Origin: a virus
Reading direction: 5' to 3' (one strand)
Length of the DNA stretch: 25,461 nucleotides
Virus record (IMG/VR): IMGVR_UViG_3300048033_000704
Span: 1 to 25,461 of that record
A program made the translations under genes and the position numbers. The first letter of the stretch is position 1. Each line of letters begins with the position of its first letter. A model generated the notes under the pieces. That model was not told the DNA's origin. It saw only the letters and a list, made by a program, of their open reading frames with translations, and did not search any database. Positions 446-17,267 of the stretch are shown here, in pieces.

Positions 446-940
446 TTATTCTATTATGTATCTTCTGATACCTAATGCTTTCCTAGCAGGGAAATATTCT
501 GCTGAAACTGAATCATCTTGGTTTCCACCTAGAATTAAGTAGTGTTCTTTACCGTCTATAATACTAGACATTAAGTAAAAACCTACGTGTCCTTCCCAAT
601 CAGAATTCCCTCTTGGGAATACCACAATATCTCCTAGCCCTGGTTCATTCACTGTTTCTCCCCATTGTAAGAATGATCTAGCGGTTAGGGGATATTGACT
701 TACTGAATCAGATCCTGGTATATTGTTTGCATGAAGTACAGCATTCACAAACGCAGCACACCATTCAGTTCTTGCTGGATCTACACCAAGGAATGCTCTA
801 AGCTCAGGATTATCATGTATTTCATGTTTACCCATTAGTTGAGTTGCAGAATGAACAGGACTTTCACTTGGAACTTCTGGCAATTGAAGTTCACATCCAG
901 CCAATAACATGGCAAGAGCAGAGGGAAACATTAGTCTCAT
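446..940 (-). CDS. Lipoprotein with a TIGR02594-type cell-wall hydrolase domain
   Basis: A 164-residue protein. The chosen start gives MRLM, a short hydrophobic stretch and a lipobox LLAGC with the lipidated Cys at residue 16, so it is probably anchored in a membrane facing the periplasm. The rest fits the TIGR02594 (CHAP/NlpC-like) family: EWCAAF with candidate catalytic Cys61, GDIVVF, GHVGFYL with His118, and LGGNQ with Asn140/Gln141. The likely role is peptidoglycan cleavage in lysis. A late-promoter box lies 8 bp upstream of this ATG, giving an almost leaderless mRNA. An alternative TTG start at 1000 adds 20 residues and has a GAGGAG at 1013-1018, but would bury the lipobox. The gene runs against its + strand neighbours and ends flush with the tRNA. 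Family call fairly sure; start less so. Confidence 0.82.
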   Translation of the reverse strand: MRLMFPSALAMLLAGCELQLPEVPSESPVHSATQLMGKHEIHDNPELRAFLGVDPARTEWCAAFVNAVLHANNIPGSDSVSQYPLTARSFLQWGETVNEPGLGDIVVFPRGNSDWEGHVGFYLMSSIIDGKEHYLILGGNQDDSVSAEYFPARKALGIRRYIIE

Positions 941-948
941 AACAACAA

Positions 949-956
949 TATTTATA
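949..956 (-). promoter_or_regulatory. T4-type late promoter for the lipoprotein gene
   Basis: Reads TATAAATA on the - strand, the box recognised by T4-type late sigma factor gp55. With T4 spacing (box at -13 to -6) the start site is about base 943, only three bases before the ATG at 940. The 13-mer TATAAATATTGTT recurs exactly at the late promoter at 11338-11345 (- strand). Confidence 0.7.
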
Positions 957-987
957 AAATAATACAATTTGATACAAATTATTTTTA

Positions 988-1042
988 CCTTTAGAATCAA
1001 TAGGTTACGTTTCTCCTCATCCTAAGCCATTGATTCTAAAGG
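988..1042. repeat. 13-bp inverted repeat (hairpin-capable)
   Basis: CCTTTAGAATCAA at 988-1000 is the exact reverse complement of 1030-1042. Inside it, TAGG (1001-1004) can also pair with CCTA (1021-1024). It lies between the late lipoprotein gene and the first strong + strand promoter. There is no run of T directly after it on the + strand, so it is not an obvious terminator. An operator or an RNA hairpin are both possible. Confidence 0.6.
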
Positions 1043-2698: not shown

Positions 2699-3817
2699 AT
2701 GGCAGCTCGTAAAAAAGCTACAGTCCGCGCTAGGCCAAAGACAGGTCTAGCAGGAGCACCAATGAACCAAGGTTTTGAAGCTTTCAAGTACTATGTACAT
2801 ATGGAAGTTGATCGTAAAGAACTTACATCAATCACAAAGCCTTATGTAAAAGCTAACTTTTCTAAAGATGATGCTAAAGCTATTCTTGCTACGCCTGAAT
2901 ATAATTTTTATATGTTCACACATCACGCATCTGCAATTTATTGGACTAGCCTTGAATTGGAGTTGCCATCTAAATATTCCCATTCATTTAAACACATCAA
3001 CGATTTTTATTCGGGTTTAATTGAAAAGGGTAAACAAATCCTTGAGGAGAAAGCAGCTTCTGATCAGGCTGCGTCAAATGTTGTTGTGTTAACTCCTCAA
3101 CAGCGTCTCTTCAGCAAAATTCAAGATACTGTTATGACAGACTTGGATGAGCTGGAGGACGCATGGATCGCCGGCGAAGAGCCAGAATTTAATATGTACA
3201 ATTGCTTTAAGCTCCACGGTTTGAGTAATGCACACATTGCTCCTGTGTTGTCAAGACTTGAAGGTTGGCTATTAGATTTTGAAGACGCTTATCATAAACG
3301 ATGTGAACAGGCTGTTGAAGGTTACTCACATGTTAAGCGTACAGTTCTTCGCCGGCGGATCAAGTTGGTACAGGATATGATTGCTGATCTTGATCGAGTC
3401 AAAGCTTCTGCTAAAGCAACCCGTAAGACCCGTGCACCAAAACCAAGAGCTGCTGATAAGCAAGTATCAAAGCTTAAGTACCTGAAAGAAGATAACGAAT
3501 TTAAGATTACTTCTATTCTACCAATTACTATTGTTGGCGCAATGAGACTTTATGTCTTCAATGTCAAAACGAAAGAATTGACAGAATATATTTCAAGTTC
3601 TGCAAAGGGATTTGAAGTAAAAGGTACATCCCTACAAAATGTAGGAGAAGAGTCTCGTAAAATCAAACTAAGAAAGCCCGAAGAGATTCTTCCTATCGTG
3701 CAGACAAAAACTCCAAAGCAGGTTGATAACACATGGCAAACTTTGACTACAAAAACAAATTCACCAAATGGACGGCTCAACTCGGATTGTGTATTGCTGC
3801 GAGTGTTGGATCGGTAA
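2699..3817 (+). CDS. Conserved protein of marine T4-like phages, function unknown (372 aa)
   Basis: Starts with a basic tail (ARKKATVRARPK). A helical, acidic middle follows (about residues 40-235), then a second basic linker (KATRKTRAPKPRAADK, about 240-256). A well-conserved C-terminal domain follows, with VGAMRLYVFNVKTKELTEY, KGFEVKGTSLQN and RKIKLRKPEE. I recall this C-terminal domain from unknown proteins of cyanophages and relatives, usually ending with a TTKT.PNGR..D..LLRVL pattern, as here. The start is firm (AAGGAG eight bases upstream). The last 85 bases overlap the next gene in another frame. DNA or RNA binding is suggested only by the basic segments. Confidence 0.85.
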   Translation: MAARKKATVRARPKTGLAGAPMNQGFEAFKYYVHMEVDRKELTSITKPYVKANFSKDDAKAILATPEYNFYMFTHHASAIYWTSLELELPSKYSHSFKHINDFYSGLIEKGKQILEEKAASDQAASNVVVLTPQQRLFSKIQDTVMTDLDELEDAWIAGEEPEFNMYNCFKLHGLSNAHIAPVLSRLEGWLLDFEDAYHKRCEQAVEGYSHVKRTVLRRRIKLVQDMIADLDRVKASAKATRKTRAPKPRAADKQVSKLKYLKEDNEFKITSILPITIVGAMRLYVFNVKTKELTEYISSSAKGFEVKGTSLQNVGEESRKIKLRKPEEILPIVQTKTPKQVDNTWQTLTTKTNSPNGRLNSDCVLLRVLDR

Positions 3818-4257
3818 ACGCTCAAAGTATCACAAATATTACTGGTAGTGAATTTCAATGTTTAATTCAGAATGGATACTTTGAAGCTCGTTCAGATGGA
3901 TATGCTTCGGTTATGGGTGTTACTAATGTAGTACTCAATAGAACCGAAGATTCTCGGTATCCTGACGATATCTGTTCAGTAGTATATCAGGGTAGACAAG
4001 ACTCAAATGGTAATATGATTCGCAATCAATGTCAGTTTAGTTGGTATTGTGATGGAAAGTCGGATCGAATGATTAACGAAGAATTAGAAAATAAAGTTAA
4101 GATAGTGGTTCGTGAAACACTTGCTTTATGGTATAACAATATTGATATTACAGAAGGGGCAACACACTATCATGCTAACTATGTCAACCCAACCTGGGCA
4201 AAGACTCTCAACTACACTACACAAATCGGAACTCACAAATATTATCGTTGGAACTAA
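3733..4257 (+). CDS. Secreted SleB/CwlJ-type cell-wall hydrolase
   Basis: Residues 1-31 look like a signal peptide: basic start, hydrophobic LGLCIAASVGSV, and an NA|Q cleavage pattern. The rest is a compact Hydrolase_2 (SleB/CwlJ) domain: CLIQNGYFEARSDG with the presumed catalytic Glu51, NVVLNRTEDSRYPDDICSVV, CQFSWYCDGKSD, ATHYHANYVNP.WA and a final IGTHKYYRW. This family cleaves peptidoglycan, so it is likely exported to act in the periplasm during lysis. The whole signal peptide is encoded within the overlap with the preceding gene. gp33 follows seven bases after the stop codon. No other good start exists downstream. Family call is strong; role in lysis is inferred. Confidence 0.88.
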   Translation: MANFDYKNKFTKWTAQLGLCIAASVGSVNAQSITNITGSEFQCLIQNGYFEARSDGYASVMGVTNVVLNRTEDSRYPDDICSVVYQGRQDSNGNMIRNQCQFSWYCDGKSDRMINEELENKVKIVVRETLALWYNNIDITEGATHYHANYVNPTWAKTLNYTTQIGTHKYYRWN

Positions 4258-5158: not shown

Positions 5159-6070
5159 ATGTCTTTTTCAAATCTAAAGCGTAACCGCGGTTCTATCGAT
5201 ACACTTACTAAAGCAGCAGAAGCTGCAGGTGGTGGTACCCAACAACAAAAATCTTATGCAGATGAGCGTTTGTGGAAACCAACAGTCGATAAAGCAGGCA
5301 ATGGTTATGCAGTAATTCGTTTCCTACCAGCACCCGAAGGCGAGGATCTCCCTTGGGTTCGTTATTGGGATCACGGTTTCCAAGGACCATCAGGTCGTTG
5401 GTACATCGAAAATTCTCTTACATCAATTGGTCAAAATGATCCAGTATCTGAAATGAACTCAGTGCTGTGGAATTCTGGTCGTGAAGAGGATAAGCAAATT
5501 GCTCGCGATCGTAAGCGTCGCTTGCATTATGTAGCAAATATTCAGGTTGTTTCTGATCCAGGTAATCCAGACAATGAAGGTAAGGTATTCCTTTATAAGT
5601 TTGGTAAGAAAATCTTTGATAAGATTATGGATGTTATGCAACCACAATTTGCCGATGAAGATCCAGTGAATCCATTTGATTTCTGGGAAGGTGCGAATTT
5701 CAAACTTAAGATTCAACAGGTTGCGGGTTATCGTAACTATGACAAATCTGAGTTTGCAAATGCCTCTGCTCTTTCTGATGATGACGAAAAGCTAGAAGGT
5801 GTTTATAATCGTTTGTATAGCTTGCAGGATTTCCTCGATCCTAAGAACTATAAAACTTACGATGAACTAAAAGCCAAGTTGAATGCCGTTCTTGGTCAAG
5901 AAAGTATGGTAATGACTACAGCTGAGTCGGTATCACTTGATGAACCAGCTCCATCTCGTTATGAACCAGTAGAAGCATCACCTGGTGTAACAAGTAACTC
6001 AGTATCAGAAACATCTGATGGTGAAGATGATACATTGAGTTATTTCCAAAAGTTGGCATCAGGCCAATAA
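5159..6070 (+). CDS. 32: gp32 single-stranded DNA-binding protein
   Basis: 303 residues, same length class as T4 gp32 (301). The N-terminal basic LKRNRGS corresponds to the cooperativity arm. The OB-fold core carries AVIRFLPAPEGEDLPWVRYW, DHGFQG.SGRWYIE, RKRRLHYVANIQVV, NEGKVFLYKFGKKIFDKI and FWEGANFKLKIQQVAGYRNYD. A Ser/Glu/Asp-rich linker leads to a short acidic tail. It coats ssDNA in replication, recombination and repair and contacts gp59. The T4 zinc ligands other than His are missing: His72 remains, but the positions of Cys77, Cys87 and Cys90 hold Ser86 and a Cys-free NDPVSEMN segment. It has its own promoter and ends at a strong terminator. Confidence 0.96.
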   Translation: MSFSNLKRNRGSIDTLTKAAEAAGGGTQQQKSYADERLWKPTVDKAGNGYAVIRFLPAPEGEDLPWVRYWDHGFQGPSGRWYIENSLTSIGQNDPVSEMNSVLWNSGREEDKQIARDRKRRLHYVANIQVVSDPGNPDNEGKVFLYKFGKKIFDKIMDVMQPQFADEDPVNPFDFWEGANFKLKIQQVAGYRNYDKSEFANASALSDDDEKLEGVYNRLYSLQDFLDPKNYKTYDELKAKLNAVLGQESMVMTTAESVSLDEPAPSRYEPVEASPGVTSNSVSETSDGEDDTLSYFQKLASGQ

Positions 6071-6073
6071 GAG

Positions 6074-6102
6074 AAAAGGGACCCTTCGGGGTCCCTTTTT
6101 TT
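6074..6102. terminator. Bidirectional intrinsic terminator
   Basis: GGGACCC, loop TTCG, GGGTCCC, extended by AAAA (6074-6077) pairing with TTTT (6096-6099) to an 11-bp stem, followed by more T on the + strand. The complementary strand also ends its stem in a T run. It sits between the stop codons of gp32 (+) and the tape measure (-) and should stop both. Confidence 0.93.
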
Positions 6103-6103
6103 A

Positions 6104-8305
6104 TCAGTATGAGAAGTTTACAAAGTCTCGTTTAAGGAAGTCATCAGGTGTAATACCTTGTTGGATAGTATAACTTGAAGTAGAAACATTGTTCGTATTA
6201 TTCGAAGAACTATTACTTCCACCTTGTATAATCATTGGTCCACCCATTCCACCATATTCACCAGCACCAGCAGCAGACTTAGCGTTCATAAGATCGTTGA
6301 TTGCCATTAGGACTTTACCTTGTGGAGAATCAAGAGGTGCTACAATCTCAGCACCGTGTAACATAGCTAATCCACCAGAAGCTGGGGCATTCATAAAGCC
6401 ACCTTTATTTGCTTGTGGAAGTTCAGCTAATTGGGCTCTAATAGCAGCAGCTTCAGCTTCAAAATCTTCTCTAGTATCATTAGTAAGAGGATTATCAAAT
6501 TGCTCAGCTGCTGGCAATGCATTTGCCGCAGCAGCTTCCATTGCTGCTAATTGATCTATCAACTCTGCTCTTTGATCTTCAATAGAATCAGGCTTCATCC
6601 ATTCGGGTAACATAGAAGTAAGTGAAGCTTTGATCTCTGCAAATGATGGCAAGAAATCAAATAGATCTGTAAAGAATGATTTTACTTTCTCAATAGTAGA
6701 ATCAAACAGTTGTTGGATTACACCCTTATCTTTTTCACCAGAAGACCAAGAGAACATATCAGTAAACCATGTTTTAACTTGGGTGAAAGCACCGGTGACA
6801 AACGTCTTAAGACTCCATGATCCATCTTCGCCAGTACCAGCTTCAGATCCCCATGTGAATAGACCTACAATCCAATCCTTTGCTGCTTTGAAAGCATCTT
6901 TAACTACTGTGGAAAGTTTGAATGGTTCTTCTGGATTTCCCCAGCCAAATAGACCTTGAATCCATGCAATTGCTTTATCAATTGGAGAATAGATTATATC
7001 AATTAATCCACCTTCACCAACCAAGCCATTCCACGCCTGTTGCATAGCTGCTACTGGATCAGTAAACAATCCTTGTAGCCATGTAATTGTTTTATCAATT
7101 GGGTCGTATAGTGTATCATATAATGAAAATGGTCTATCGGGATCTCCAATACCAAAGAGTCCTTGAACCCAAGCGATTGCTTTATCAATAGGTGCGGTGA
7201 TAACTCCTAAAATACCATCAGGGCCAATAAGACCCATAGCTAAAGATTCTAATGCCGCAACCGGGTCTGTAAATAAAGTTCCAATCCAATTGAAAGCTCC
7301 TTTGACCATATCAAAGATTGAGCCAATAGAATCACTAATTAATGTTGAAAAAGAAAATTCATTTAGAGTAGCTTCAGCATTTTCAAATCCAAACTTACCC
7401 GCAATCCAAGCTACGGCGCTCTTTAATAGGTCTAATGGATAACCAACAATAGTGGTTAATAATCCAGATATACCACCTTCGAGTCCACCCAATATGCCAT
7501 CTTCTTTGAAGCCATCAATTGCTCCTTGAATAGCACCAATGGCTCCAGTAATAATTGTAAATGGAAGAAATAGTCTGCCAAAGATTTTTACTAAACCACC
7601 AAACCGGCCAGCTAATGCTCCAATAAATCTGCCGACTTTTGAAACAGCTCGTATTATTCCTCGGACACCTTTTACTAATGAACCTACTAAACGAATAATA
7701 CGTCCACCAAATAATACAGCGACAGTGCCAACAATAGCAGCAACAGCTCCAATATTATCTCCAAGCAAAGCAAATCCTTCGCCAAAGTCTCCATCTAAAA
7801 ACATTTTGATAGAATCAACAATAGCAAATACACCATCAATTGCGGCTCTAACACCAGCAAATAGTGTTTCAGGATCCATGAACAATAATGCTGCAGCGCC
7901 AAGACCAGCTATTAGACCACCCGAAGGTTTCATAGCATCTAATTGTTTATCATAAGCATCTGCTAATCCATCAATACCAGATACAAGTTTAGATAAAAAC
8001 TCATTTGCTTCTTCTTGGCGTCTAGCATTTTCTCGATTTTCTTCTTCAGTTCCGGCTAATCCTTGAAGTGCGTCTAATTGTTCTCGAGCTAATTCCATTT
8101 GCTCTTCATTAGACGCACTATCAAGAGATATTTGAACTTGTGTTAAGGTTTCCCTCAATTTGGCAGAGTTCTCTGTACCACTTTTTTCTAAAGCAGTAAT
8201 ACTTTTATCGAGGTCACTTAAAGAGTCTTTTTGTTTTAACTCTTTATTTTGCTCTTGAATTGTAGCGGTCAATTGCTCTAATGAGCGACCTAGATCTTCT
8301 GCCAT
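6104..8305 (-). CDS. 29: Tail tape-measure protein (gp29-like)
   Basis: 733 residues. About residues 1-120 are a coiled coil rich in Glu, Gln and Lys. Hydrophobic segments follow (GGLIAGLGAAALLF, VAAIVGTVAVLFGG, FLPFTIITGAIGAIQGAI), then amphipathic Trp-rich repeats. Near the C-terminus GGFMNAPASGGLAMLHGAEIV matches the typical tape-measure end motif; the final part is Asn/Ser-rich. In the tail it sets tube length and sits in the lumen. It follows the two chaperone-like genes, the usual order. T4 gp29 is 590 aa; part of the excess is a 69-residue tandem duplication (listed separately). The ribosome site is weak, suggesting coupling to gp51. It ends at the shared terminator. Confidence 0.85.
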   Translation of the reverse strand: MAEDLGRSLEQLTATIQEQNKELKQKDSLSDLDKSITALEKSGTENSAKLRETLTQVQISLDSASNEEQMELAREQLDALQGLAGTEEENRENARRQEEANEFLSKLVSGIDGLADAYDKQLDAMKPSGGLIAGLGAAALLFMDPETLFAGVRAAIDGVFAIVDSIKMFLDGDFGEGFALLGDNIGAVAAIVGTVAVLFGGRIIRLVGSLVKGVRGIIRAVSKVGRFIGALAGRFGGLVKIFGRLFLPFTIITGAIGAIQGAIDGFKEDGILGGLEGGISGLLTTIVGYPLDLLKSAVAWIAGKFGFENAEATLNEFSFSTLISDSIGSIFDMVKGAFNWIGTLFTDPVAALESLAMGLIGPDGILGVITAPIDKAIAWVQGLFGIGDPDRPFSLYDTLYDPIDKTITWLQGLFTDPVAAMQQAWNGLVGEGGLIDIIYSPIDKAIAWIQGLFGWGNPEEPFKLSTVVKDAFKAAKDWIVGLFTWGSEAGTGEDGSWSLKTFVTGAFTQVKTWFTDMFSWSSGEKDKGVIQQLFDSTIEKVKSFFTDLFDFLPSFAEIKASLTSMLPEWMKPDSIEDQRAELIDQLAAMEAAAANALPAAEQFDNPLTNDTREDFEAEAAAIRAQLAELPQANKGGFMNAPASGGLAMLHGAEIVAPLDSPQGKVLMAINDLMNAKSAAGAGEYGGMGGPMIIQGGSNSSSNNTNNVSTSSYTIQQGITPDDFLKRDFVNFSY
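6863..7276 (-). repeat. Exact-register 69-residue tandem duplication in the tape measure
   Basis: Residues 344-412 and 413-481 align without a gap over 69 positions. Both open LFTDPVAA, both have PIDKAIAW(V/I)QGLFG at offsets 29-42 and P..PF near offset 47-50. A further, degenerate copy begins LFTWG at residue 482. The DNA unit is 207 bp (7276-7070 and 7069-6863). Confidence 0.85.
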
Positions 8306-11357: not shown

Positions 11358-12107
11358 ATGGCGCTTAGATTTCCCAGCAATTTAAATAGTCACCCACATG
11401 TGACATTCACCGCTTATAATAAAGATGGTGGATCTATTGGTAGCTGCGCTCTTTATATGCCACCAGGTGTTTCATTTGCTGATGGCGCTGGTTATTCGAC
11501 ATTTGATATGGGTCCACTTGGAGCTGATATTGCCGCTGGTATTTCTGGCGGGTTAAACCAAGATGCTATTAGAAGCGTATTAGATAGTGCAACTAGTGCT
11601 GCTAATAGTAACTCTGATTTAAGAACCATTATGGCTGGTAAGATGATTCAAAATGCGGCAATGGTTCCTGGAGCAGATCGAGTTTCTGATATTTACCAAC
11701 AATCAAAATCTATTGCAATTAATCCAAATACTACTACTGCTTTTCAAAACATGAATATTCGTTCCTTTGTATTTAACTTTAAATTAGTTCCAGATAATCA
11801 AACTGATTCAAGAACAATTAAAGAAATCCAAAACTTATTTAGAGAACTTATGTACGCAGATACAGCAGGCCAGGGTTACTTATTGAGCTATCCCGCGAAA
11901 TGGAAGATTCAATTTAAAAATAGTAATGGTGATGTAAATCCGTATTATCCTAAAATTTATGAAAGCTATTTAACTAATCTTCAAACTTCATATAACGCAT
12001 CTGGTCATCTCCATCACAGAGACGATGCTCCAACCGAAGTTGATGTTTCACTTACTTTCCAAGAGACTCGTGTTCTTACACAAGCAGATATTAGAGGATT
12101 ATTATAA
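11358..12107 (+). CDS. 48: gp48-like baseplate tail-tube cap protein
   Basis: 249 residues. Near the N-terminus IGSCALYMPPGVSFADGAGYSTF; then a Gly/Ala-rich helical stretch; then a tail-tube-type half with NIRSFVFNFKLVPDNQTDSRTIKEIQ, LLSYPAKWKIQFK, NPYYPKIYESYLTNLQ and APTEVDVSLTFQETRVL. The last part has the strand and 'LTF.E' pattern of gp48/gp54/gp19 tube proteins. In T4, gp48 sits on the hub and, with gp54, starts the tube. It is shorter than T4 gp48 (364 aa). First gene of the + strand late operon; its TAA overlaps the next ATG. The 48 versus 54 labels of this gene and 9224-10219 rest on length and context. Confidence 0.7.
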   Translation: MALRFPSNLNSHPHVTFTAYNKDGGSIGSCALYMPPGVSFADGAGYSTFDMGPLGADIAAGISGGLNQDAIRSVLDSATSAANSNSDLRTIMAGKMIQNAAMVPGADRVSDIYQQSKSIAINPNTTTAFQNMNIRSFVFNFKLVPDNQTDSRTIKEIQNLFRELMYADTAGQGYLLSYPAKWKIQFKNSNGDVNPYYPKIYESYLTNLQTSYNASGHLHHRDDAPTEVDVSLTFQETRVLTQADIRGLL

Positions 12108-12880
12108 TGCCTCATTATTTTAAAAACTTCCCATTAACGTCTTATAATTTTCAAGACGATCCAAATTCAAGAACCTTGGTTGTTGATATTTTTCGTAATA
12201 TTCGAGCCGATATTAAAATTGATGACGCGATGGCTTATACATTGTATGAAATTCAAGAGAATGAAAGACCCGATCAGATTTCTCAAATGTTCTATGAAAC
12301 GCCAGAATATTTTTGGACCTTCTTTATTATTAACGAACATTTGTGGGAAGGTTTGCGCGCTTGGCCAAAAGAGTATAATGAGCTTCAAGATATTATTGCT
12401 GAAAAATATACAAAAACATTTATTACTGGATATAGAGAATCCGGTATGACAGGTACAAATCATTTTGTGCTCGACCAAGAATGGGTTGTTGGAGAGCAGA
12501 TTGTTGGTAATAACTCTGGCCACACTGCTACTATTTCAGAAATTGATACGTTTATGAATCGCCTTGAAATTACAAATGCAACAGGTAACTTTAGTAACGA
12601 TACTCAGATTAATGGTCAAACGTCTGCTGGTAGATGGGTTAGAACTGCTGTTTATGATTTTTCGGTTGAAGATCAAATAAATGCTGCCCATCATTACGAA
12701 GACATCGATGGGATGGAAATCCCAAGAACTATTTTCTCTAAAGGTGAAACTGAAGTATTTGAAGTTACTCATCGCGAATACGAAGAAAGACTTAATGATT
12801 CAAAGCAACAAATCAAAGTTTTGAAAAAAGGATTTGTTGAAGATTTTGCTAGAGCTTATAAGAAGTTAATTAATCAATGA
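12107..12880 (+). CDS. 53: gp53-like baseplate wedge protein with an inserted beta domain
   Basis: 257 residues versus 196 in T4. The N-terminal 110 residues are typical gp53: NFPLTSYNFQDDPN, VVDIFRNIRADI, AYTLYEIQENERPDQISQMFY.TPEYFWTFFIINE and LRAWPKEYNEL. Residues about 120-178 form an extra small beta domain (VGEQIVGNNSGHTATISE, NRLEITN..G.F, INGQTS). The C-terminal part resumes with YEDIDGMEIPRT and a helical end that in T4 clamps the wedges together. Start overlaps the upstream stop codon by one base (TAATG); the end overlaps gp27 by four (ATGA). Confidence 0.9.
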   Translation: MPHYFKNFPLTSYNFQDDPNSRTLVVDIFRNIRADIKIDDAMAYTLYEIQENERPDQISQMFYETPEYFWTFFIINEHLWEGLRAWPKEYNELQDIIAEKYTKTFITGYRESGMTGTNHFVLDQEWVVGEQIVGNNSGHTATISEIDTFMNRLEITNATGNFSNDTQINGQTSAGRWVRTAVYDFSVEDQINAAHHYEDIDGMEIPRTIFSKGETEVFEVTHREYEERLNDSKQQIKVLKKGFVEDFARAYKKLINQ

Positions 12881-15099
12881 AGCAATCAGGTTTACATCCT
12901 ACTAACTCTACAGGTGTAGGTAATCCCGGTGCTTTTCGAATGGAGATCAAAATCTATTCGGCAAGTGGCGAAGAAAGAGATATTACTCAACTTGTAGATA
13001 CATTTGAAGTCACTGAATCTGTTTTCCAACAAGCTATGATTGGAGAATTTAGAATCGTTGATGGCGTCAACTTGTTTGAAGAATTAAATATTACTGGTAA
13101 CGAAAGATTATCTGTAGTTCTTCGCAAACAATTAGATGGTCAAGGTCAAGCTGAAGACATGCAGTCTGATTGGTATATTATTGATATACCTTTATTTGCA
13201 AGACCTAAGCCAGATGTTCAAGCATATACTTTACGGTGTGTTTCTGCATTTGGACTTGTTTCTAAGATGAGACGAGTAACTCATGTAATGAAAGGTCCAC
13301 CTTCAGATATTCTAAAAAGATTATACGAAGAATGTGGTGTTGATGATTTAGATAAAACTCTTGTTGATTACAATGATTTTTTAAGACCAGACAATAATTC
13401 ATTTAAGCTTTTAGTTGGCGATAGTACATCAACTGGTGTAATGACTTATATTCCAACTAAGCAAACATACTCAGAAGCTATTATGCAAATGCTGTCAAAG
13501 ACAGCAGCGCCAAATGGTGCGCCATTCTTCTGTTATGAAACTTTCATTGGTGGTAACTCAGTTTTAAATTCATATAATAATATGATTACAACTGAGATTA
13601 CAGATACATATACACAATCATTTTTCTTAAGAGCTGATGCAATGACAGAAGCATCTTTTGAAGAGCAAAGATTGCGTGTTTTAGAAATTTCATCTAATCT
13701 TGGATTCTCTCCATATAAAGGTTTTCGTGATGGTTCATACACAACACGTACTCATATTTTAGATTGGACTTCAAAGTCTTATCAACTTCAAGATTTTAAT
13801 GCAATGAGAGACGACATCCAAACTATGGACAAAGATCTTGTAATGCATCCAGATTTTTCTGTATCAGGAATAGATTATACAAATTCTCCTGATATGCATA
13901 ATCTATTTTATGCTGTAAATAGACAAGCAATGTCTGATAAAGACGAAGTAAATATTCATATGCATATGCCATATGTCGGTGCAAAGAAAAGATCGATTAT
14001 TTCTAATCTTGGCCAAATTGAGCATATGGTTAAAGTTCACGGTGATCCAAGATTACTTCCAGGCCGTCAGATTGGATTAGTGATTCCAAGATCTGGTTCT
14101 GAAAAAGCTGACCAAGATGAAATGCTTTCTGGTCGCTATTTGATTGTATCTTCAATTCATACATTTGATAACACTGGTTATCATACACGTCTTAAATTAG
14201 CTCGGGATGGCATTGATAGAGGTGGCTTGCAATATAGACCAGTTGAAGGTGTACCGGATGTTCGTTATGGTGATGAAGCTTTTGACGTTACTCCTCAAGT
14301 TACAAATGTAATTGGTCAAAACCCAGCTGGTGATGATGGTGGATTGCAGCAACAAGGACCTATTGCGACTGAAGTTATTCCAGGTTATGGGCCTGGCGAA
14401 GTTGATCCAGCGTTAGCCGCGGCAGTAGCAAATTCAGCTGCTGTAACTGGTGATAATGCTCAAAGACAAGCTGAAGCTAATGGTAATTCAGCAGCATCCG
14501 TCGCGGGTGATGAAACTGGATCTGCGTCAGGTCAAGATTTTAATCCTGGTGATATTGATTCCGGAGAAGCTCCATCTACTTCTCAAACTGTTCAAGGGAC
14601 AGTAGTCTCAGATGATCCAGCTTCAGTGATTGCAGAAGTAATTGATTTTGGTCCAGGCTATAATATTGTAAGACTTGGTGATGGACGGGTTGTAAGACGC
14701 CAAGGTGCTCGTAACTGGAGAAATCACAATCCAGGAAATATTGAAGAAGGTGGGTTTATGCAAGCCCGAGGTTCTCTGGGTGGTGATCCTAGATTTGCTA
14801 TCATGCCATCTTATTCTGCAGGTAGACAAGCTAAATACGATCTAATATTTACTACATCTAGCTATAAAGATCTTCCAATTTCTTCAGCTATTGCTAGATA
14901 TGCTCCAGCATTTGAAAATAATACTCAATCTTATGCTAGACAAGTAATTTCTTCAGCAGCAGTTCCAGCTGATCGTGGTGGACCAGACGCAAAAATGAAA
15001 GATACCAATGAAGCCGAGCGTCAAAGAATTCTTGATGCTATGGAAAAAGTTGAAGGCTTTAGAGTTGGCACTGTGACTGAATTAACGGGATATAACTAA
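12877..15099 (+). CDS. 27: gp27-like baseplate hub protein with fused C-terminal cell-wall-type domain
   Basis: 740 residues, nearly twice T4 gp27 (391). Residues about 20-450 fit the hub: MEIKIYSASGEERDITQLVDTFEVTE, GEFRIVDGVNLFEELNITGNERL, late HGDPRLLPGRQIGLVIPRSG and SGRYLIVSSIHTFDN.GYHTRLKL. This trimer carries the gp5 spike. Residues about 460-590 are a low-complexity Ala/Gly/Asp/Gln linker. Residues about 595-735 are another domain with RNWRNHNPGNIEEGGF (613-627), FAIMPSYSAGRQAKYD and PISSAIARYAP; RNxNPGNI domains occur in phage virion proteins and putative peptidoglycan hydrolases. A wall-degrading role at the tail tip is inferred. Overlaps gp53 by four bases and gp5 by one. Confidence 0.85.
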   Translation: MKQSGLHPTNSTGVGNPGAFRMEIKIYSASGEERDITQLVDTFEVTESVFQQAMIGEFRIVDGVNLFEELNITGNERLSVVLRKQLDGQGQAEDMQSDWYIIDIPLFARPKPDVQAYTLRCVSAFGLVSKMRRVTHVMKGPPSDILKRLYEECGVDDLDKTLVDYNDFLRPDNNSFKLLVGDSTSTGVMTYIPTKQTYSEAIMQMLSKTAAPNGAPFFCYETFIGGNSVLNSYNNMITTEITDTYTQSFFLRADAMTEASFEEQRLRVLEISSNLGFSPYKGFRDGSYTTRTHILDWTSKSYQLQDFNAMRDDIQTMDKDLVMHPDFSVSGIDYTNSPDMHNLFYAVNRQAMSDKDEVNIHMHMPYVGAKKRSIISNLGQIEHMVKVHGDPRLLPGRQIGLVIPRSGSEKADQDEMLSGRYLIVSSIHTFDNTGYHTRLKLARDGIDRGGLQYRPVEGVPDVRYGDEAFDVTPQVTNVIGQNPAGDDGGLQQQGPIATEVIPGYGPGEVDPALAAAVANSAAVTGDNAQRQAEANGNSAASVAGDETGSASGQDFNPGDIDSGEAPSTSQTVQGTVVSDDPASVIAEVIDFGPGYNIVRLGDGRVVRRQGARNWRNHNPGNIEEGGFMQARGSLGGDPRFAIMPSYSAGRQAKYDLIFTTSSYKDLPISSAIARYAPAFENNTQSYARQVISSAAVPADRGGPDAKMKDTNEAERQRILDAMEKVEGFRVGTVTELTGYN

Positions 15100-17267
15100 T
15101 GGCTATGTTTAATAATAAAGATGGATTTAAGTCAACTGATTTTAATTGGTTTACTGGTGTAGTTGAAGATCGTCATGATCCTTTAGTACTCAATCGCGTA
15201 AAAGTTCGTTGCTTTGGTTGGCATACAGAAAATAAAAGAGCATTACCTACAGAAGAATTGCCTTGGGCATCTGTTCTAATGCCTACAACTTCATCTGGTA
15301 CTTCAGGTGTCGGTGAAGGTACTCACGGACTTGTTGAAGGTTCATGGGTTATGGGATTCTTTAGAGATGGTAATGATGCTCAAGATCCAGTAATCATGGG
15401 TACTATTATGGGTACCAATACTGAAGGTGCTGAACCAACAACTGGATTCAATGATCCATATGGAGTCTTTCCAAGAGAAGCTGGCACCGACGCAGGCACA
15501 AGAGCATTAGGTCTTGATTCTGAAAGAGTTCGTCCTGTTGGAGCTACAGAACCTGAAGATGCGTATGCACCGCAATATCCATATAACAAAGTTCGTTTAA
15601 CTGAATCAGGCCACATCGTAGAATTTGATGATACACCTGGAGCAGAACGTATTAATATAAGACATCGTACTGGATCATTCATTGAATTAAGACCTGATAC
15701 ATCTATGCGAACTCGTTCAAAAGAACGATTTGATGCTATGACTCAATGGACGGTTACGGTGACTGGAGATGCTACCGTAAATGTTGGTGGAAGTATGTCT
15801 ACTACAGTTCAAGGTAATATGACATCTTCAGTTGCTGGTAATTCTTATATTGACACAAAGGGTAATGTTACTTCTCGTGTTTCTGGTTCTCATTATGGTT
15901 ATGTACAGGGTTCATCGATTCTGCAAACAACTGGTAATATTAATGTTAAGACAACAGGTAACCTAACTGTTGATTCTGCTGGTAAGATTGATTTTAGATC
16001 TGATGGTCCATTCTCAATTACAGCACCTTCAATGACTATTGACTTACAAGAAGACTTATCAATTGTTGGTACTAATATGATTACTGATATGTCTGCCACT
16101 ATAGTAACGCAAGTTCCAACTCTATCAATGATTACTGATGTAACCAGAATTGATGCAACACAATCACTAGATCTTCATACTGTCGCGTTAACAGCAATGG
16201 GTGTTGCTACAATGGAACTTGGAACTTCGGCATTTGATTTGAATGCTGTAGCATCTGCATATATTAATGCCGGAGAATCTATTGATATTTCTGCTGGATC
16301 TGAAATGAATCTTGTTACAGCTACTATGCAAATAGATGCTGATGCTGAAATGAGTTTAGCTTCGCCAACAATGAATTTAGATGCAGATGGTACAATGAAT
16401 ATTGCCGGTGGAACAACTAATCTTGGTTCTTCTGGAACAACAATTATTAAATCTTCTTTCCTTGACTTGAATCCAGGTGGTACTATGTCTCCTGGTTCTG
16501 CATTCTCACCAGATGACGCGCCTGAAATTCCTGATATTCCATTGGTTCCAGCTCCAACTTCTCCGAATGCTCTTCCAGCCGTTGGATTCGACGCGCTTGA
16601 ATCCGCTCCATTTGAAGTACAAATTGACGAAGCAGATACTGATATTAGTTTTCCAACTCCAAAGTACTCAGCAATTACTCCAGATGGAACAGCAGCTTAT
16701 TCCCAACAGGTACTTAATTTAACAAGTACCGGCCGGGCTGGTATTTCTGGATATTCCGGTACTGGTCTTCAAAGCAAAACTTCAGATACAACTAATCCAG
16801 CAATTGATGGTAAGATTATTTACCAAGATGATGCTGGAACAACTGTAAAATATACAAATGCTCATGCGACTCGAAATAAAGAAATTGTATCAGCACTCGA
16901 GCAAATTATTATTACTGCTTGTAAAAATAGCGGACTATCTGCGGAAATATTCTCAGGTGGTATGACTTCACAAAGAAGAACTGGTTCTGATAGACACTTA
17001 AATGGATTTGCGGCTGATGTGCATCTATTTACTTCTGAAGGAAAAAGATTGAACGTTCAATCTCAAGAACTTCGCGATTGGTGTCAACAAGCTAAAAACG
17101 CTGGTGCTACAGCAATTGGTGCTGGCGTTGGTTATATGGGCAATGTAGGTGTTCACTTAGATATTTCTGCCGGTAATACTGTTCCAGTAGGTTCTGCTAA
17201 ATATTGGGGAGCTGCTGGTAGATCTGCTAATGCCCCTCAATGGTTAATCAATATTATGACTAGCTAA
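15099..17267 (+). CDS. 5: gp5-like central spike with C-terminal M15-type peptidase domain
   Basis: 722 residues. Residues about 10-130 are the OB fold of gp5/VgrG (FTGVVEDRHDPLVLNRVKVRCFGWH, WVMGFFRDGNDAQDPVIMGT). Residues about 185-470 are short beta repeats (TVTGDATVNVGG, MTSSVAGN, GNINVKTTGNL) that form the needle. The lysozyme domain that T4 gp5 carries between these parts is absent. After a Pro-rich linker, residues about 575-722 look like a zinc peptidase of the M15 type: SGGMTSQRRTGSDRHLNG, with His633, Asp640 and final HLD His686/Asp688. Such enzymes cut peptidoglycan cross-links. Start overlaps the gp27 stop codon. T4 cleaves gp5 after its lysozyme; no such site is expected here. 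Confidence 0.88.
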   Translation: MAMFNNKDGFKSTDFNWFTGVVEDRHDPLVLNRVKVRCFGWHTENKRALPTEELPWASVLMPTTSSGTSGVGEGTHGLVEGSWVMGFFRDGNDAQDPVIMGTIMGTNTEGAEPTTGFNDPYGVFPREAGTDAGTRALGLDSERVRPVGATEPEDAYAPQYPYNKVRLTESGHIVEFDDTPGAERINIRHRTGSFIELRPDTSMRTRSKERFDAMTQWTVTVTGDATVNVGGSMSTTVQGNMTSSVAGNSYIDTKGNVTSRVSGSHYGYVQGSSILQTTGNINVKTTGNLTVDSAGKIDFRSDGPFSITAPSMTIDLQEDLSIVGTNMITDMSATIVTQVPTLSMITDVTRIDATQSLDLHTVALTAMGVATMELGTSAFDLNAVASAYINAGESIDISAGSEMNLVTATMQIDADAEMSLASPTMNLDADGTMNIAGGTTNLGSSGTTIIKSSFLDLNPGGTMSPGSAFSPDDAPEIPDIPLVPAPTSPNALPAVGFDALESAPFEVQIDEADTDISFPTPKYSAITPDGTAAYSQQVLNLTSTGRAGISGYSGTGLQSKTSDTTNPAIDGKIIYQDDAGTTVKYTNAHATRNKEIVSALEQIIITACKNSGLSAEIFSGGMTSQRRTGSDRHLNGFAADVHLFTSEGKRLNVQSQELRDWCQQAKNAGATAIGAGVGYMGNVGVHLDISAGNTVPVGSAKYWGAAGRSANAPQWLINIMTS

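Follow-up and report, generated by a model that had tools for sequence, protein, structure and literature searches.

A predicted Enc34-type peptidoglycan hydrolase domain at the C-terminal end of the gp27-type baseplate hub of a T4-like phage tail

The window, that is, the whole stretch of DNA analysed here, is a 25,461-base IMG/VR virus record with a T4-like run of baseplate genes, in which the baseplate hub protein continues beyond its gp27-type fold into a flexible linker and an extra C-terminal domain. Judged by sequence profiles and a structural model, this domain is a member of the Enc34-type (PHA02564) family of peptidoglycan hydrolases, which have a permuted lysozyme-like fold. It is probably a peptidoglycan glycosidase of that type, most likely an N-acetylglucosaminidase, and is predicted to act at the tail tip as a virion-associated lysin. 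The features on which this reading depends are the following:

446-1000, minus strand: other wall-hydrolase-like ORF, 184 aa (TIGR02594, E 1e-20, above the cut-off)
3733-4257, plus strand: other wall-hydrolase-like ORF, 174 aa (Hydrolase_2, E 5e-21)
12107..12880, plus strand: baseplate wedge subunit, gp53-type, upstream of the hub (phrog_232, E 5e-26)
12877-15099, plus strand: hub-enzyme ORF, 740 aa
12877..14220, plus strand: gp27-type hub, residues 1-448 (phrog_350 and model match to T4 gp27)
14221..14637, plus strand: Gly/Ala-rich linker, residues 449-587, 139 aa (composition and lowest regional conservation)
14638..15069, plus strand: Enc34-type hydrolase domain, residues 588-731, with a beta-hairpin (588-609) and a helical core (610-731), predicted from profile and model
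14710..14742, plus strand: RNWRNHNPGNI, residues 612-622
14899..14901, plus strand: Tyr675, at the Enc34 Trp79 position (alignments)
14932..14934, plus strand: Tyr686, at the Enc34 Tyr95 position (alignments)
15052..15054, plus strand: Glu726, at the position of the catalytic Enc34 Glu131 (invariant in the 10-row and 85-row alignments)
15099..17267, plus strand: gp5-type spike, 722 aa (Gp5_OB, E 1e-24)
16701..17264, plus strand: tentative M15-like peptidase domain at the gp5 end, residues 535-722, 188 residues (motif)

From the perspective of gene order, the hub ORF lies in a gp27-like neighbourhood, with the phrog_232 wedge gene upstream and the Gp5_OB spike gene downstream; the sequence reveals that the stop of the wedge gene (12107-12880) overlaps the start of the hub ORF, whose own stop overlaps the start of gp5. 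Over residues 16-448 the protein matches phrog_350 'tail protein' (E 4e-43), and a model of residues 1-470, built from 68 hub sequences (pLDDT 85.4), finds T4 gp27 (1k28_D) as its best structural match, with Z 26.8 and rmsd 3.2 over 341 aligned residues. Behind T4 gp27, the model also matches other contractile-system hubs, including VgrG (4mtk_A, over its residues 5-351 of 627). The profile of the same 68-hub alignment retrieves no hub chain from the PDB, its best match being unrelated (E 0.7), a result to be read with the caution that distant kinship may escape a sequence search, and the name gp27 therefore rests on fold and gene order. The gp27-type hub proposed in an earlier sequence-only reading is borne out by the phrog_350 match and by the model. 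That reading had also described a Gly/Ala/Gln linker, of which the richness in glycine and alanine stands (20 G, 20 A, 15 V, 13 D, 11 Q and 11 P) while glutamine, merely equal in number to proline, does not. Within the linker, at residues 462-470, the model pLDDT falls below 50.

The family assignment of the domain beyond the linker is based on sequence and fold jointly. As a single sequence, the domain alone matches PHROG 873 'endolysin' (E 3e-11) and, in the PDB, 9vvp (Gp29, E 2.3e-5) and 7q47 (E 0.0033), the latter being the catalytic domain of the endolysin (ORF39) of Hafnia phage Enc34 (PMC8943055). These matches extend beyond RNWRNHNPGNI, the mark by which the extra domain had originally been recognised, and confirm its presence; its limits had to be redrawn, the folded unit covering about 588-731 and the remainder being chain end. 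A scan of viral contigs with the pattern RNNNPGN gave at least 600 matches and at least 362 confirmed relatives, the best 80 of which were kept, and among the sequences collected the domain is present in 126 ORFs. The resulting alignment contains 84 rows plus the window (85), leaving out the window copy L001, the annotated phage records L034-L042, minus-strand hits, spans of less than 90 residues and duplicates. Its profile matches 9vvp with E 3e-33 and 7q47 with E 6e-30, in the latter case over profile positions 18-138 of 144 and covering the Enc34 catalytic Glu, so that the match over the whole catalytic domain by which membership of the Enc34-type (PHA02564) family is defined is present. 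The invariant columns are, in hub protein numbering, R615, N616, N618, P619, G620, N621, G649, A652 and E726; the conservation of the RNxNPGN stretch is partly circular, because the loci of the main scan were picked by RNNNPGN. E726 lies outside that pattern, and the one other pattern that covered it added nothing but close relatives. The extra domain has no Pfam or NCBIfam match at E<=1, and 10 pattern matches in bacterial genomes yielded 0 confirmed relatives. Two other affiliations were considered. The Pae87/Muramidase family PF11860 is ruled out as the identity of 7q47 or of the domain, as 7q47 is the Enc34 endolysin, a member of a different family, and PF11860 is not matched at E<=1. A tape-measure origin is not claimed, because phrog_2276 contains the domain itself, and PHROG labels of that kind stem largely from it.

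The predicted structure agrees with this assignment. An AlphaFold model of residues 583-740 reaches pLDDT 95.5 and pTM 0.90, and in a Foldseek search of the PDB its sole match at E<=0.001 is 7q47 (E 2.8e-4, probability 1.00, TM 0.53). A VIA structural search likewise places 7q47 on top (Z 10.1, rmsd 2.5, 112 residues); the next row has Z 7.5, and the rows below the first (ABC transporters, endonuclease VIII, topoisomerase VI and others, Z 5.5-7.5) are taken as background. The Foldseek TM of 0.53 is modest and, for mostly helical models, Z below about 13 may reflect a common arrangement according to the aligner's own caution, which is why the case for the family relies on sequence and fold together. 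The fold comparison that had been suggested as a check on the earlier reading thus retrieved no confident non-lytic fold, its best match being the Enc34 catalytic domain.

Regarding the likely chemistry, the catalytic domain of Enc34 ORF39 is described as a permuted lysozyme-like alpha-lobe, and the protein as muralytic on Gram-negative cells with a permeabilised outer membrane; Glu131 occupies the position of the catalytic glutamate in related enzymes, and Trp79 and Tyr95 are further signature residues (PMC8943055). This set of residues is found in the hub-borne domain as E726 (Glu131), Y675 (an aromatic swap for Trp79) and Y686 (Tyr95), and an aromatic residue is retained at the Trp79 position in the rows of the 10-row alignment, one of which is M4Lys, the BSPM4 endolysin. 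The numbers are those of the paper; in the 7q47 chain the same residues are 132, 80 and 96, that is, the paper's numbers + 1, as read from the alignment. On the basis of structure and catalytic residues, the Enc34 authors group the family with the GH73/GH23 glycosidases and argue for N-acetylglucosaminidase activity (PMC8943055). M4Lys of phage BSPM4 degrades peptidoglycan, and its products were read as those of an N-acetylglucosaminidase with signs of an endopeptidase, although one legend says N-acetylmuramidase (PMC7143992). By analogy with these enzymes, the hub-borne domain is most likely an N-acetylglucosaminidase, a prediction in which the exact bond is uncertain. The wall-related role suspected earlier is in this way substantiated and taken further, since the family includes the muralytic Enc34 ORF39 (PMC8943055) and M4Lys (PMC7143992).

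The neighbouring spike differs from that of T4 in its lytic equipment. A blastp comparison with Aeh1 gp5 strongly aligns two pieces of the window gp5, residues 10-185 with Aeh1 2-179 and residues 151-344 with Aeh1 399-603, skipping the Aeh1 lysozyme between them; the T4-type lysozyme insert between the OB domain and the beta-helix is absent from the window gp5, and these flanking pieces rule out a T4-type GH24 lysozyme as its enzyme. A single-sequence search of 7,903 ORFs with the Aeh1 lysozyme gave none at E<=1, in a search that could miss a diverged lysozyme. At its C-terminal end, the window gp5 contains the Zn-site motif HxxGxAxD...HxD (SDRHLNGFAAD ... VHLD), and the H, G and D of the first motif are invariant in 7 aligned gp5-end rows. 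The profile of this end matches the L-alanyl-D-glutamate peptidase 2vo9 weakly (E 0.052), and a Pfam search with the window's own domain gives nothing at E<=10. Of the peptidase proposed for gp5 in the sequence-only reading, the motif is therefore clear while the family support falls short, and the gp5 end is tentatively regarded as an M15-like putative peptidase. Varied lytic domains are frequent on gp5 within the sample surveyed with Pfam: among 67 ORFs of at least 400 aa, taken from 132 distinct complete gp5 after merging near-identical N-termini, GH19 occurs in 7, M15_3 in 6, M15_2 in 4, CHAP in 3 and NlpC/P60 in 1. The window clade was represented in this set by the window, L030 and L032. 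T4-like gp5 ORFs with lytic domains include L253 4188-7280 (1031 aa, GH19) and L260 4228-7035 (936 aa, CHAP).

The distribution of the hub-enzyme fusion was followed in samples of hubs and gp5 proteins drawn by similarity to the window proteins, among the matches listed, which do not constitute a census. In these, 13 of 93 distinct complete hub ORFs (>=380 aa) carry the Enc34-type domain; all 13 are 740 or 743 aa long, none is truncated, and all are close relatives of the window, with 66-97% hub identity to it where listed. Hubs lacking the domain (80 of the 93) measure 424-714 aa. A gp5 with the window's M15-like end accompanies the fused hub consistently: this end is found on 16 of 132 distinct complete gp5 among the matches listed, and on 14 out of 14 in the de-duplicated loci where a complete gp5 accompanies a hub, or the end of one, that bears the domain. 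The Enc34-type domain is found on just one of these 132 gp5, that of L078. There, a plain hub of 442 aa is followed by a gp5 of 626 aa ending in the Enc34-type domain (phrog_430, 7e-59; phrog_873, 3e-20), and the next ORF (5487-7082, 531 aa) ends in an M15 peptidase, a distant counterpart of the window's gp5 end (VanY, 1.1e-5, and Peptidase_M15_3, 5.5e-5, both just above the cut-offs). Ahead of its M15 part, this 531-aa ORF shows a weak tape-measure-like match (phrog_1272, 6e-6). In Pelagibacter phage HTVC008M the hub, at 445 aa, is plain and gp5, at 350 aa, is short. A hub without the enzyme also occurs at L130 (1743-3491, 583 aa), which is 58% identical to the window's hub and ends in an Ala/Gly-rich tail, and whose gp5 has the M15-like end; it represents either the state preceding the gain of the domain or a loss. 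Another hub, L162 4706-6847 (714 aa), bears a different C-terminal extension of ~270 residues, seemingly two related repeats, for which no Pfam or PHROG family was found beyond the hub.

In a collection of 50,697 phage records, the 740-aa query reaches 3 records at 1e-5, and in all of them the match is confined to the extra domain. The hub part alone reaches 218 records at E<=10, weakly (E 2e-5 to 0.6 among the 25 matches listed), and a diverged fused hub among isolates could therefore be missed.

Comparison of the window with L030 gives an identity of 79% for the enzyme part, 68% for the hub and 50% for the linker, and the enzyme part (dN 0.19, dS 1.0) is under purifying selection. Across 8 closer relatives, the hub is conserved above the enzyme in 6, equally in L003 and below it in L002; among the more diverged of them, the linker ranks lowest or close to lowest in conservation. 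Given this selection and the 13 distinct complete ORFs that carry it, the fusion does not stem from a single assembly error. A quick tree of 90 domains, built from few columns and with 41 of 87 inner branches open, unites the hub-borne copies (11 rows, of which L032 is a fragment) in a single clade with an SH-aLRT of 99; the L078 gp5 copy falls outside it. This clade is nested, with modest support (87), in a 50-row group with the L078 gp5 copy and a protein of Acinetobacter phage Ab1-TPeters encoded between tail tube and hub genes. A separate 35-row group (support 99) includes the BSPM4 and BcepGomr endolysins, EcoDS1 gp16, D6 Sit and a protein of a tailless Vibrio phage. The simplest reading of this topology would be that the domain was recruited once onto the hub and separately onto gp5 in L078; a single shared fusion event is tentatively rejected, since the hub-borne clade excludes the L078 gp5 copy, and the number of events is itself tentative owing to the few columns and the open branches. 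In the tailless Vibrio phage 10N.239.311.D05_PE001 (L042, Vinavirales) the domain occurs as a small protein, and it thus crosses virus realms.

Compared with the Enc34-type endolysins (Enc34 ORF39, 7q47, and BSPM4 M4Lys), the hub-borne domain shares the fold, the RNxNPGN stretch, the catalytic Glu and the second Tyr; it differs from Enc34 by its Tyr in place of Trp79 and by an additional N-terminal beta-hairpin. Those endolysins carry a C-terminal membrane domain, whereas the window's domain forms the C-terminal end of a baseplate hub. The same domain occurs in large virion or injected proteins, namely EcoDS1 gp16 (Kayfunavirus), D6 Sit, the 697-aa protein of Ab1-TPeters and 9vvp Gp29, but these carriers are internal-core, injection or tail-region proteins and not hubs. 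The T4 gp27-gp5 device (1k28) shares the hub fold and the hub/spike gene neighbourhood with the window; in T4 the GH24 lysozyme lies within gp5 and gp27 carries no addition, while the window has a gp5 without that insert and an unrelated enzyme on the hub. A hub-borne lytic domain as such is not new, because the hub gp15 of cyanophage A-1(L) contains a lysozyme, an endoglucanase and a peptidase domain, with assays showing activity of the latter two (PMC10966104). In A-1(L) all these domains are gathered on one hub, whereas in the window the Enc34-type domain is on the hub and the M15-like one on the spike. What differs is the enzyme family, the T4-type hub and the missing spike lysozyme; the combination of a T4-type hub with an Enc34-type domain was not found among the listed publications on gp27, hubs and lysozymes, which is no proof of its absence in print. 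L078 resembles the window in that neighbouring genes of a T4-like tail tip encode an Enc34-type domain and an M15 peptidase, with the glycosidase on gp5 and the peptidase on the next ORF instead of on hub and gp5, respectively.

These elements suggest how the tail tip may work. In VgrG, the gp27-like fold runs directly into the gp5-like part, so the gp27 fold is expected to point its C-terminal end towards gp5. By analogy with T4, the hub would be trimeric and form a 3:3 complex with gp5, and three enzyme copies would hang from it via the flexible linkers, beside the gp5 spike. Sheath contraction would push the spike through the outer membrane, after which the tethered enzymes could reach the peptidoglycan; the hub enzymes would cut the glycan strands and the M15-like gp5 ends the stem peptides, allowing the tube to pass. 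The hub-borne enzymes would thereby replace the T4 lysozyme missing from the window gp5.

Other roles have been weighed against this one. The L130 hub counts against a tail-tip lysin, being 58% identical and yet devoid of the domain, and another tail lysin may exist elsewhere in the genome, because the record is a 25-kb piece. It could be that the domain keeps the fold and mainly binds peptidoglycan or positions the tip, cutting being left to the peptidase-like domain of gp5 or to other lysins. The replacement of Trp79 by Tyr675 would be compatible with such a role, as would the fact that muralytic activity in the family is known from Enc34 ORF39 and M4Lys only (PMC8943055, PMC7143992), both endolysins. 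Nevertheless, E726 is invariant in 85 rows despite lying outside the main-scan pattern, and the Trp79 position stays aromatic in the 10-row alignment, making a mainly binding role improbable. Less credible still is a domain acting mainly as a late endolysin from within, freed, for example, from the hub by linker cleavage. That the characterised relatives are endolysins (PMC8943055, PMC7143992) and that T4 gp5 matures by proteolytic cleavage (PMC7650644) speak for it, but the domain sits on a baseplate protein within the baseplate gene run, the tree sets the hub-borne copies apart from the group of named endolysins (their own wider group being weakly supported), and the window contains the two other wall-hydrolase-like ORFs, 446-1000 and 3733-4257.

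Regarding these two ORFs, that at 446-1000 has a CHAP match just under the Pfam cut-off, matches the end of phrog_1259 'baseplate hub subunit and tail lysozyme' and shows by eye a lipoprotein-type signal (LAGC), suggesting a possible exported or lipid-anchored wall hydrolase, and that at 3733-4257 overlaps the end of the preceding ORF and has by eye an N-terminal signal sequence, as in a likely exported cell-wall hydrolase. A last alternative concerns the bond and not the role: the domain might be a true Enc34-type enzyme acting as a muramidase or as a stem-peptide endopeptidase, which would leave the tip with a muramidase or with two peptidases. The M4Lys products that hint at an endopeptidase and the legend naming an N-acetylmuramidase (PMC7143992) point in this direction, against the argument of the Enc34 authors for a GH73/GH23-like N-acetylglucosaminidase (PMC8943055), and this option is considered unlikely. 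The preferred reading remains that of a hub-borne glycosidase acting as a tail-tip lysin.

If this reading is correct, the extension of a core T4-like baseplate protein, left without a Pfam or NCBIfam match at E<=1, would gain a concrete function; the domain would also be a compact candidate enzyme from a family with few characterised members. The results indicate that a T4-type contractile tail may carry its wall-cutting tool on the hub and not on the spike. In a broader proposal, to which about even chances are given, the tail-tip glycan cutter of this lineage of T4-like phages would have its place on the hub, the gp5 lysozyme insert being absent and an unrelated permuted lysozyme-like glycosidase being tethered to gp27, and would be paired with the gp5 peptidase, so that up to six enzymes at the tip would cut both glycan and peptide bonds; selection would keep the enzyme pair and not the carrier, since L078, from another lineage, has the same pair shifted by one gene (glycosidase on gp5, peptidase on the next protein). 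Such an arrangement would allow a simple test of whether glycan and peptide cutting are both needed at the tip.
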